From contig NC_018664.1 in NCBI RefSeq assembly GCF_000299355.1, positions 2,340,380-2,404,379 on the forward strand: 64,000 nt of DNA, read 5' to 3'. The position numbers and the translations under genes were made by a program. Source of the DNA: Gottschalkia acidurici 9a (GTDB lineage: Bacteria > Bacillota > Clostridia > Tissierellales > Gottschalkiaceae). The notes below the pieces were generated by a model that did not search any database, was not told where the DNA came from, and worked only from the letters and a program-made list of their open reading frames with translations. This document shows positions 722 through 5,513 of this stretch, piece after piece (the stretch's first letter is position 1; each line of letters begins with the position of its first letter).

Positions 722-782
722 ATTCCCTCTTGTAGAATATATTAACCTTTTTATTTACAAACGGGAATTGTTATGCTAATAT
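722..782 (+). promoter_or_regulatory. Promoter and inverted-repeat operator of the XRE regulator
   Basis: A near-consensus sigma-A promoter is visible: TTTACA at 754-759, a 17-base spacer, and TAATAT at 777-782. An inverted repeat flanks and enters it: ATTCCCTCTTGTA at 722-734 and TTACAAACGGGAAT at 755-768 (half-site ATTCCCnnTTGTA). The right half overlaps the -35 and spacer, as expected for an autorepressor site between divergent genes. Binding by the 806 product is inferred. Confidence 0.6.
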
Positions 783-805
783 ATTTCCATAAGGAGGTAA
801 TTGCA

Positions 806-1273
806 TTGAAAGAAAGATTGTTAATGTTAAGAAAGGATTTGAAACTTAACCAACATGATTTTGGCTCAAGAATCGAAATGAGCAAAGCAAGTATTTCAGC
901 TTTAGAAAAAGGCTTAAGAGATATAACTGATAGAACAGTAAAGCTTATATGTACTGAATTTAGTATAAATGAAGATTGGCTTAGATATGGTAAAGGAGAA
1001 ATGTTCATTCAAGCTGATACCTTTTCACTTGATGACTATGCTAAACAAAATAATCTATCTGATTTGGAGTTAGATATTGTTAAAGCTTATATAAATCTTA
1101 ATAGTGATATTCGTAAAGATATCATAACATCTTTAAAGGCCGTGTTTGATAATCATTCAGAAATAGCTGTTATTAAGGATGAAGAAAGCGATATTAATAA
1201 AGAGCTTGAAGCTTATAGGCTTGAGTTAGAAGCTGAACAAAGAGGAAGAAGGAAAAATGAAAATTTAACTTAA
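806..1273 (+). CDS. XRE-family (phage repressor-like) transcriptional regulator
   Basis: The 155-residue protein has an N-terminal Cro/C1-type helix-turn-helix (about residues 5-60, including the SKASISALEKG recognition-helix region). Its C-terminal half is acidic, helical and unrecognised, and presumably mediates oligomerisation. I place the start at TTG 806: AAGGAGG sits 8 bases upstream, and the promoter -10 at 777-782 means the in-frame codon at 773 would not be transcribed. Such proteins act as lysogeny or element repressors. Its place next to divergent small genes within a recombinase-bearing element suggests control of that element, probably with autoregulation. Confidence 0.85.
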   Translation: MKERLLMLRKDLKLNQHDFGSRIEMSKASISALEKGLRDITDRTVKLICTEFSINEDWLRYGKGEMFIQADTFSLDDYAKQNNLSDLELDIVKAYINLNSDIRKDIITSLKAVFDNHSEIAVIKDEESDINKELEAYRLELEAEQRGRRKNENLT

Positions 1274-1900: not shown

Positions 1901-2074
1901 ATGAATAAGTACTTAAAGTGGATTCTAGATCACTTAAAGTTTTTTCTTATTTTCTTAGGATTAAATTTTTTATCGCAGAAGTTGTGGAACTGTTTTGAAG
2001 GAGATTCTCTCTTGCAAAATGCGATTGGAGTAACGATGTTCATTATGTTGTTTAAAAATTTCAGTAAAAAATAA
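1901..2074 (+). CDS. Possible 57-residue hydrophobic peptide
   Basis: A 57-codon frame from ATG 1901 encodes a peptide with one long hydrophobic stretch near the N-terminus, a second near the C-terminus, and a lysine-rich end. There is no convincing Shine-Dalgarno sequence upstream. It is followed directly by a perfect terminator hairpin at 2110-2151, which supports a transcript ending here. Not recognised. It could be a short membrane peptide or simply the AT-rich tail of the preceding transcript. Confidence 0.3.
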   Translation: MNKYLKWILDHLKFFLIFLGLNFLSQKLWNCFEGDSLLQNAIGVTMFIMLFKNFSKK

Positions 2075-2194: not shown

Positions 2195-3255
2195 TATTAT
2201 ATTCTAATATAGTTCTATTAATACAAAGAAATGGAGATAAGAACACCTTTCACAGCCGAATTTACATTCTATTGTAGTTCTATTAATGCTGGTACAATGA
2301 CTATAAATTAATAAGTTTTTAAAAACTTTACATTCTAATGTAGTTCTATTAATACACAAAGTATTATAGTAAATACAGGACTACTTACAGTCTTTACACT
2401 CTATTTTAGTTCTATTAATACTTATGTGTTAAAAACTTTATTCCAGTATCATCAACATTTACATTCTATTCTAGTTCCATTAATACTTTGATATAAAAAT
2501 TATACCACAAGTGAAAATAGAAAGCTTATAATCTACTATAACTCTACAAGTAAAACAAATGATTATTAAATTTCTAATATAGTTCTATTAATACACAGTA
2601 TGTAACTAAAAAAATAACGATTACGCTACAAAATTTACATTCTACTCTAGTTCTATTAATACAAGAGTACACTTCTTAGATCATTATTGACACATTTACA
2701 TTCTACTCTAGTTCTATTAATACTCTTGCGACTGGAAATCCACTTATCAAGGAGAAAAATTTACATTCTACTCTAGTTCTATTAATACTATTGATACTAC
2801 TTTTTCTTTTACCTTAAATGCTAATTTACATTCTACTCTAGTTCTATTAATACAATATCGAATCTAAATCCATTTCTCACGTCTACATTGATTTACATTC
2901 TACTCTAGTTCTATTAATACAATTACAGTTTGTACAAGTTTTGATATTTTTAATTATAATTTACATTCTACTCTAGTTCTATTAATACACGTCTAGACGT
3001 CTATGTTATATAATTATAAATAAGGATTTACATTCTACTCTAGTTCTATTAATACAAGAAAAGAAATTTTACGAACACTTGATTCTTGTAAGGATTTACA
3101 TTCTACTCTAGTTCTATTAATACAGAGACTGGGGTTCTAATGCTAAGAAAAGAATGGATATTTACATTCTACTCTAGTTCTATTAATACAGTTGTTCAGC
3201 TTAGAGCTGAAGGTCTGTGGCTTTAATTTACATTCTACTCTAGTTCTATTAATAC
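2195..3255 (-). CRISPR. CRISPR array, 17 repeats of 30 bp, type I-B-like repeat, no cas genes nearby
   Basis: Thirty-base repeats end, on the plus strand, at 2224, 2289, 2355, 2421, 2486, 2553 (very decayed), 2594, 2662, 2723, 2788, 2853, 2920, 2988, 3055, 3123, 3189 and 3255. Spacers are 31-38 bases, except for an 11-base remnant at 2554-2564. The ten right-hand repeats (2633 onward) are identical and the seven left-hand ones vary. Read on the minus strand the repeat begins GTATTAATAG and ends GAATGTAAAT, the 3' ATGTAAAT end being typical of clostridial type I-B repeats. Conserved repeats at the right and decay at the left place the leader at the right, and a promoter there agrees. No cas gene is present, so processing must rely on Cas proteins encoded elsewhere. 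Confidence 0.97.
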
Positions 3256-3555
3256 CCGTTATTCTGTGTATATCGATTTTTCTTTACTATAAATATGTTT
3301 TCTGTCTACCTATTCACTTTTTGTCGAAATATTATGTATTAATTAATTATATTTTATATAAAATCAATTTCAAGTGTGATTACATCTAAGTTTGTCTAAC
3401 CTCAGTATTTTTTACACTACTACAGGTTGACATATATTTCTTCTTAAATAATATCTTATCCCCAGTATAACATATTATTTACAATAGATAAATAATAATA
3501 AAAGTATGATGTAATAAGGTAAATAAACAATTTATATCTTGAAAGGAGCTTTGAT
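3256..3555 (-). promoter_or_regulatory. CRISPR leader with sigma-A-like promoter
   Basis: This AT-rich 300-base gap holds no credible gene. On the minus strand TTGAAA (3368-3373), a 16-base spacer and TATAAT (3346-3351) form a near-perfect promoter aimed into the array. It gives roughly an 85-base leader transcript before the first repeat at 3255. The adjacent repeats are the identical, recently acquired ones, as expected at the leader side. The recombinase ribosome binding site (AAAGGAG) lies at the far right of the gap. Confidence 0.7.
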
Positions 3556-5106
3556 ATGCAATATTGTATATATCTCCGTAAATCTAGATCTGATGAGGAA
3601 GCTGAACAGCGAGGAGAAGGTGAAACTCTTGCTAGGCATGAGAAGATATTATTAGATCTAGCTAGAAAACTAAAATTAAATATAACTAAAATATATAAGG
3701 AAGTTGTAAGTGGTGAAACTATATCTTCTAGACCTATCATGCAGCAGTTATTAAGTGAAGTAGAAGAAAAGTTATGGAGTGGTGTGTTAGTTGTAGAAGT
3801 TGAACGTCTAGCCCGTGGGGATACTATAGATCAAGGGACAGTATCACAGGCTTTTAAATATTCTAATACTAAAATAATAACTCCTGTCAAAACTTATGAT
3901 CCAAATAATGAATTTGATGAAGAATATTTTGAGTTTGGCCTTTTTATGTCTAGAAGAGAATATAAGACCATAAATAGACGTTTGCAGCGTGGAAGACTAG
4001 AAAGTGTAAAGGAAGGTAAATACGTTGGTAATACTCCCCCATACGGATATGTCAGAAAAAAACTAGAAAAAGAAAAAGGCTATACACTAGAGCCGCATCC
4101 TGAACAGTCGGATATAGTAAAACTTATATACAAATTATACACAGAAGAAAATATAGGAGTATCTTTAATTGTAAGAAGATTAGAAGAATTAAAAATACCA
4201 ACAGCAAAAGGTGGATATTGGTCAACTTCTACTCTAAGAGGAATCTTAAATAACCCTGTCTATATTGGCAAAATAAGATGGAAACATAGACCTCAGGTTA
4301 AGAAAGTTAAAGATGGTGAAATTATAAAAGAAAGACCTCGTTCTAATGATGTAGTAATTGTAGACGGTTTACATGAAGCAATAATAGATGAAGAAACTTT
4401 TAATAAGGCACAAGAAATACTGTCTGAAAATTCATCAGTTCCCGTTCCTACAAAATATACTATTAAAAATTCTCTAGCTGGAATAGTCAAGTGTGGTAAG
4501 TGCGGTAGAAATATGAATAGACGACCGTATGGAGAAAGGCAGCCTGCTACTTTAATGTGTCCTGTTCCTCAATGCTCTAATGTTAGTTCTCAACTACATT
4601 TAGTTGAACAAAAGTTATTAGAGTCTTTAGAAAAGTGGCTAGATAAATATAAACTAAAAATAAACTCTAATACAGATAACAATAATTTAAGCTTAGAGTT
4701 AGATGTAGTTAAAAAATCAATTCAAACTATAAATGAAGAGCTAGAAACACTTAACACACAGTCTGATAAACTTCATGACCTACTTGAGCAAGGCATATAC
4801 TCAACAGAGAAATTTCTTGAACGTTCTAAGATCATATCTGAGAAAATATCCAAACTGAAAGATAATAAAAGTAATTTAGAGAAAGAATTAAATCAAAATA
4901 GATTAAAAGAAGAAAGTGACAGAACCATAATTCCTAAGATTGAAAGAATATTAAAGACATATAACACACTTGAAACACCAGATCAGAAAAATGAATTACT
5001 TAAGGAAGTTTTAACTGAAGTTGAATATAATAAAGAAGTGGGTGGAAGATGGCATGCTAAGCCAGATGACTTCAAGTTAGTTGTCCATCCTAAAATACCT
5101 AAATAG
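3556..5106 (+). CDS. Large serine recombinase (integrase/excisionase of the element)
   Basis: The 516-residue protein has the large serine recombinase architecture. The N-terminal resolvase catalytic domain (about 1-145) has the YLRKSR motif with nucleophile Ser10 and the conserved ERLARGD arginines around 84-87. The recombinase domain is about 160-290. A zinc ribbon uses Cys313, Cys316, Cys335 and Cys340. A long coiled coil (about 375-470) controls directionality in this family. The start is ATG 3556 with AAAGGAG upstream. The stop is only 26 bp from the cotJC fragment, the usual place for an integrase beside its attachment site. It would integrate the element and, with a directionality factor, excise it. 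Confidence 0.95.
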   Translation: MQYCIYLRKSRSDEEAEQRGEGETLARHEKILLDLARKLKLNITKIYKEVVSGETISSRPIMQQLLSEVEEKLWSGVLVVEVERLARGDTIDQGTVSQAFKYSNTKIITPVKTYDPNNEFDEEYFEFGLFMSRREYKTINRRLQRGRLESVKEGKYVGNTPPYGYVRKKLEKEKGYTLEPHPEQSDIVKLIYKLYTEENIGVSLIVRRLEELKIPTAKGGYWSTSTLRGILNNPVYIGKIRWKHRPQVKKVKDGEIIKERPRSNDVVIVDGLHEAIIDEETFNKAQEILSENSSVPVPTKYTIKNSLAGIVKCGKCGRNMNRRPYGERQPATLMCPVPQCSNVSSQLHLVEQKLLESLEKWLDKYKLKINSNTDNNNLSLELDVVKKSIQTINEELETLNTQSDKLHDLLEQGIYSTEKFLERSKIISEKISKLKDNKSNLEKELNQNRLKEESDRTIIPKIERILKTYNTLETPDQKNELLKEVLTEVEYNKEVGGRWHAKPDDFKLVVHPKIPK

Positions 5107-5150
5107 TTATACGATAACATCTATGTACCTAAGAATTAGCTCACTGGGAA
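5107..5150. other. cotJC: Element/chromosome junction inside cotJC (candidate attR)
   Basis: Reading upstream from the cotJC fragment, homology to the family holds back to codon 5133 (Glu-Leu-Ala-His-Trp-Glu-Met-Ile), then a TAA at 5130-5132 ends it. Serine recombinases use a short shared core, which should lie around 5128-5150. The matching attL and the cotJC 5' part lie outside this window, so the exact crossover cannot be seen. Confidence 0.7.
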
Positions 5151-5513
5151 ATGATAGGTACTATAGTTTGGAAGCTGATAAAGGATGCTCCTATCAGTAA
5201 AATAAAGGGAACACCTTTCGAAGCTTATTATGTAAGCCATGGTAAAGCATTATATCCCGCAAATGCCGGTGGACATCCTTGGACTGCATCATTTATACAG
5301 TCTAAAGACGATCCTATAGCTTCTTTACATGAAGATATGGCTGCTGAGCAAAAAGCTAGAGCAACTTACGAGTATTTAATAAGAGTAAGTGATGATCCTG
5401 GCGTTAAGGATACTTTAAGATTTTTAAGAGAAAGAGAGGTTGTTCACTTCCAACGTTTTGGAGAGGCACTCTGTATAGTTCAAGAAGCATTAGATAGCAA
5501 GAAATATCATTAA
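5133..5513 (+). pseudogene. cotJC: cotJC 3' fragment (spore coat protein CotJC, manganese-catalase family), interrupted by the element
   Basis: About 126 codons match the C-terminal two-thirds of CotJC. They include the half-motif ELAHWE, the AAEQKARATYEY helix and the REREVVHFQRF helix, which supply glutamate and histidine metal ligands in this ferritin-like family. The first 60-65 residues, with the first ligand glutamate, are absent. The break lies inside the EExAHxE motif. ATG 5151 has no ribosome binding site, so independent translation is unlikely. Full-length CotJC is about 190 residues. Excision of the element could restore the gene in the sporulating mother cell, as for sigK/skin; this is inference. 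Confidence 0.85.

Follow-up and report, generated by a model that had tools for sequence, protein, structure and literature searches.

The window analysed here, a stretch of 64,000 nucleotides from Gottschalkia acidurici 9a, carries an orphan, leader-bearing type I-B CRISPR array inside a degraded prophage that splits the spore-coat gene cotJC, and the evidence suggests, with a probability that we put at roughly three in four, that this array is served in trans by Cas proteins encoded elsewhere in the chromosome. The assignment to type I-B is based on regular short repeats with unique spacers, on a matching leader at one end and on the occurrence of cognate I-B cas genes of the Cas8b type in the same genome.

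The array occupies positions 2195-3255 on the minus strand and consists of 16 recognisable repeats of 30 nt, with the sequence GTATTAATAGAACTAGAGTAGAATGTAAAT in the crRNA sense, regularly spaced at 61-68 nt from start to start except for a single interval of 108 nt. It reads leftward, with the leader at its right-hand end. The 10 leader-proximal repeats (2633-3255) are all identical and the six distal ones (2195-2594) are degenerate, with 2-5 mismatches each; mismatched repeats on the left-hand side are the usual sign of the old end of an array. Fourteen spacers of 31-38 nt and a gap of 78 nt (2487-2564) separate the repeats, and are numbered here from the leader as E1, E2 and so on, the gap being E11. 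The first-pass annotation had recognised the array but counted 17 repeats and gave its range as 2195-3555. Sixteen repeats were confirmed, and the seventeenth may be at best a doubtful remnant within the 78-nt gap, where about 20 of 30 bases agree by eye; the leader takes up 3256 to about 3438, and the remainder up to 3555 lies upstream of a recombinase gene. A genome-wide search with the repeat pattern returned 48 matches, all confined to two arrays, compared with none for the reversed pattern, so the array exceeds what chance would produce. Past its distal end a terminator-like 19-bp stem (2110-2151) shows T-runs on both strands by eye. A hydrophobic ORF of 57 aa with a lysine end (1901-2074, plus strand; no family match) adjoins this terminator and recalls the type I toxins located beside C. 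difficile arrays in the excerpt of PMC6563280.

In agreement with the annotated absence of cas genes, tblastn searches with the nine genes of the chromosomal cas locus returned no homologue, neither within the window nor across the 60 kb beyond its left edge; the array is therefore a true orphan, about 1.64 Mb from its likely Cas partner. The genome contains one Cas1 and one DevR/Cas7 match, both in a single locus at about C2:695-705 kb, where PADLOC identified a complete type I-B operon encoding Cas6b, Cas8b, Cas7b, Cas5b, Cas3b, Cas4b, Cas1b and Cas2b, accompanied by a WYL regulator and followed by a 34-repeat array. The element repeat differs from 33 of these 34 repeats at one or two of its 30 bases, and from the remaining one at three, and its last 14 bases, which we take to contain the crRNA handle, are identical in 33 of the 34. 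Cas6 cuts 8 nt from the repeat end. The previous description of the array as orphan and type I-B-like is thus borne out by a chromosomal I-B operon with nearly the same repeat. Since PADLOC clearly recognises Cas6b in the locus and PF10040, one of the Cas6 models, found no match in the genome, this model is blind to the Cas6 encoded there, and a second Cas6 may be present in the genome. The cas-linked array itself (L010 12763-14991) changes repeat type along its length, with 23 leader-side repeats starting with GC and 11 older ones with GT. Its spacer 23 (L010 14254-14290) matches at 31 of 37 bases within the serine recombinase match of two IMG/VR phage contigs (L206 and L208), which hints at targeting of phage integrase genes in this host.

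The leader of the element array (3256-3438, minus strand) is homologous to the sequence that separates cas2 from the first repeat in the cas-linked array, confirming its annotated position on the right of the repeats. Alignment of the two leaders gave a score of 59, compared with 6.9 +/- 2.7 in 200 shuffles (maximum 15). A block of 22 nt (3404-3425) is identical at 22 of 22 positions and in either array begins 170 nt ahead of the first repeat; five genomes of other genera have arrays with a similar block at about 170 nt. The block was seen in eight of 30 loci (L099-L128), the other 22 of which may not reach the leader end; two of the eight (L102 and L128) belong to the same chromosome, L106, with a match on the far side of its repeats, was omitted for that reason, and the five outside leaders (L108, L112, L113, L120 and L123) were picked for carrying the block within 6 mismatches. 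Because of this selection, the comparison of columns was repeated without the 22-nt block: the element leader matched 36 of the 43 columns invariant in the five outside leaders and the chromosomal leader 34 of the same 43, whereas permuted bases matched a mean of 14.5 and a maximum of 23. Outside the block the two leaders agree with each other at 35/43 invariant columns and at 64/120 elsewhere, which is the pattern that constraint on the blocks would predict; the blocks are thus likely functional, and were probably kept while the rest of the leader diverged. The proposed leader promoter stood less firmly, as a promoter-like site matching 11 of 12 positions (TTGAAA-16-TATAAT, 3346-3373, minus strand) does lie in the leader, but such sites are no commoner in the region than in shuffled DNA (20 found, 19.2 expected).

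The array lies within an element of 17,995 bp (C2:2327515-2345510), between a phage-type HTH regulator (773-1273, plus strand) and an intact large serine recombinase of 516 aa with Resolvase and Recombinase domains (3556-5106, plus strand), from which it diverges at a distance of about 300 bp. The 3' part of cotJC, a manganese catalase of the spore coat, follows at 5137-5513 on the plus strand, and the 5' part (L011 6825-7014) lies outside the window, where cotJA, cotJB and this first part of cotJC occupy L011 6335-7014. At the right-hand junction attR (5113-5136, plus strand) consists of the element arm GATAACATCTATGTACCT and the core AAGAAT (5131-5136); attL lies to the left of the window (L011 7015-7038). 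AAGAAT is common to both junctions and the element arms form an inverted repeat with 17 of 18 bases matching. When the flanks are joined at this core they translate as one in-frame CotJC, which establishes that the element is inserted in cotJC as annotated. As in skin-like elements, a sporulation gene is therefore split at att sites in such a way that excision would restore the frame, and the element carries its own large serine recombinase together with phage remnants.

Besides a holin, an amidase, a Holliday junction resolvase and a phage metallopeptidase, the element encodes, as remnants, a tape measure protein fragment of 121 aa and short proteins resembling Erf and DnaD, and none of the capsid, portal or terminase families was found among 20 element proteins scanned against PHROGs. 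It is, as judged from its gene content, a decayed prophage keeping its recombinase and att sites. The earlier statement that the array travels with the element is therefore retained only in part, the recombinase and att sites being kept but present mobility being doubtful. A gene with an ADP-ribosyltransferase exoenzyme domain adjoins attL on the minus strand (L011 7128-7823, C2:2327628-2328323).

A survey of related recombinases (loci L014-L091, L132-L180 and L129, and positions 3556-5513 of the window) placed this insertion in a broader context. Among 80 genome loci a cotJC fragment was present in 42, at 34-178 nt from the recombinase end, and absent from 36, with no room to tell in two; among 80 IMG/VR loci the corresponding figures were 13, 42 and 25, and one further fragment occurs in G003. 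All 56 fragments are cut at the same codon, N parts ending in ...TEE and C parts beginning with LAHWE, and cotJC is thus a recurrent integration site of the recombinase family, in both orientations and across many Clostridia. We recognised no paper on cotJC-splitting elements in our searches of open-licence papers, and a recombinase family that breaks cotJC at one codon may be a fresher result than the array. Sigma-E-like promoters upstream of the cotJC recombinases were considered and rejected (3 of 39 loci, 2.4 expected), so the motif lends no support to excision restricted to the mother cell during sporulation. In G003, the only other family member with such a cotJC element, the recombinase is 71% identical and uses the same site, the ERF and DnaD-like genes are longer, an IrrE-like gene and an HTH regulator stand where the array is found here, and the repeat occurs nowhere in the genome. 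The DNA around 161 related recombinase loci (2.2 Mb) contained four short runs of repeats, none with this repeat; the array is therefore not a standard part of cotJC elements. No IMG/VR contig carried an array with this repeat when searched with a pattern of 25 fixed bases.

On the preferred reading, transcription would begin in the leader and proceed leftward to the terminator near 2110-2151, chromosomal Cas6b would cut the transcript at the repeat, which has its 3' part in common with the cas-linked repeat, and the resulting crRNAs would be used by a Cas5-7-8b-3 complex, probably against phages and other mobile DNA. Cas1-Cas2-Cas4 would insert new spacers at the element leader in trans. Position 16 of the repeat is a G in all 10 intact element repeats and in none of the 34 chromosomal ones. 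During Cas1-Cas2 adaptation new repeats are copied from the leader-end repeat, and since G16 is absent from the chromosomal array the ten repeats were probably made in place. Growth in place, which is also supported by the lack of any spacer common to the two arrays, would need Cas1-Cas2 acting in trans, probably in the current or an earlier host. Several points weigh against this reading, namely the failure of the searched spacers to find a protospacer, the number of promoter sites at the shuffled level and the lack of the repeat in G003; in addition, the degeneration of six of the 16 repeats indicates that turnover has been slow or has stopped.

How the array reached the element is a separate matter, compatible with service in trans. 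An old duplication of the host's cas-linked leader and array might simply have landed in the element, neither brought nor exploited by it, an origin that we consider possible but somewhat short of an even chance. The homology spans the stretch between cas2 and the first repeat (cas2 itself lay outside the comparison, and no piece of it is in the window), the repeat is nearly identical to the cas-linked one, and the lack of such arrays near the 161 related recombinase loci also speaks for this origin. However, the two leaders differ strongly outside the conserved blocks and are overall only 65% identical, less than the 78% between the leaders of two species of one genus (G189 and G190), which means that the element array was not copied recently, and the GAG variant of its repeat is also present in two other genomes (G155 and G156), making import possible. 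The array is thus an old branch, derived either by old duplication or by import. A more elaborate version, which seems unlikely, is that the cotJC element imported the array from another lineage, the leader being a code readable by the I-B adaptation proteins of different genera and the immune memory being extended with each new host's Cas1-Cas2; if excision were tied to sporulation, the mother cell would lose this memory while the spore line would retain it.

The proposal that the spacers could exclude competing phages or elements gained no match from our searches of IMG/VR, phage records, relatives and the same genome, which covered 6, 9, 3 and 4 of the 14 spacers respectively. None of the six spacers compared with IMG/VR (E1, E2, E8, E6, E3 and E9; first 29 nt, with positions 6, 12, 18 and 24 free) was matched, and none of the nine compared with phage records (the same six with E10, E7 and E15) gave a credible hit, the best being E7 (26 nt at 92%, E 0.03, Staphylococcus phages) and E3 (24 nt at 96%, E 0.04, Vibrio phage). 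E1 searched in 249 genomes of the order, E2 and E6 in 60 relatives and E8 in its own genome found only themselves. All 15 stretches, compared with 2.47 Mb of fetched DNA, gave only weak matches like those of shuffled spacers, for which alone five sets totalled 837. Little can be concluded from these missing matches, because the sampling of phages of this order is probably poor.

The same results bear on the view that the array is a fossil, which arrived with the prophage, once gained spacers and has since fallen silent or ceased to grow. The six degenerate repeats, the gap resembling a lost repeat, the decay of the surrounding prophage and the lack of targets for the spacers searched would all fit, but the identity of the ten repeats next to the leader, the conservation of leader blocks to the same degree as in the cas-linked leader and a complete cas operon in the same cell make this account improbable. 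Finally, non-defence RNAs silencing, for instance, the neighbouring recombinase or regulator are very improbable despite the divergent arrangement and the short distance from the recombinase, as matches of the element spacers to the element and its flanks do not exceed chance.

Service of an orphan array in trans has close parallels, and the annotated precedent was confirmed for prophages: according to excerpts of PMC6079278 and PMC11222575, C. difficile carries I-B arrays in prophages with the cas operon elsewhere in the chromosome. The former places several arrays of most strains in prophages and reports crRNAs of prophage arrays as the most expressed in strains 630 and R20291, and it gives CCA and CCT as PAMs of C. 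difficile; the latter describes phi027 as carrying two arrays and adjoining a cotJC homologue. Prophage-borne orphan I-B arrays are thus already known and the present array is a further case, which differs from those described there in belonging to a host of another order, in lying in a short, decayed prophage inserted in cotJC itself, and in being known from its sequence, with no target found. The element resembles skin and the related elements in sigK, spsM, spoVFB, gerE and yabG (excerpts of PMC5025042, PMC5595907 and PMC10747680), decayed prophages that interrupt a sporulation gene, carry a large serine recombinase and allow the reading frame to be restored; unlike these, it targets cotJC, its sporulation-regulated excision is putative and it has no recognised recombination directionality factor. 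The leader-bearing mini-CRISPR arrays without cas genes on mobile elements, as excerpted from PMC6858448, have 1-2 spacers, archaeal viruses as carriers and known targets, compared with about 15 spacers, a bacterial prophage remnant and no target here.

The system therefore provides a clear natural example in which a single Cas operon probably serves two arrays whose repeats can be told apart, one array lying on an excisable element, and in which a single fixed base difference tells to which array a repeat-bearing transcript or a new repeat belongs. With it the C. difficile pattern reaches a further order, and the leader blocks conserved between genera represent a prerequisite for the continued usefulness of transferred arrays. 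Moreover, the existence of a hotspot in cotJC suggests that many loci of the spore coat are interrupted and can function only after excision.
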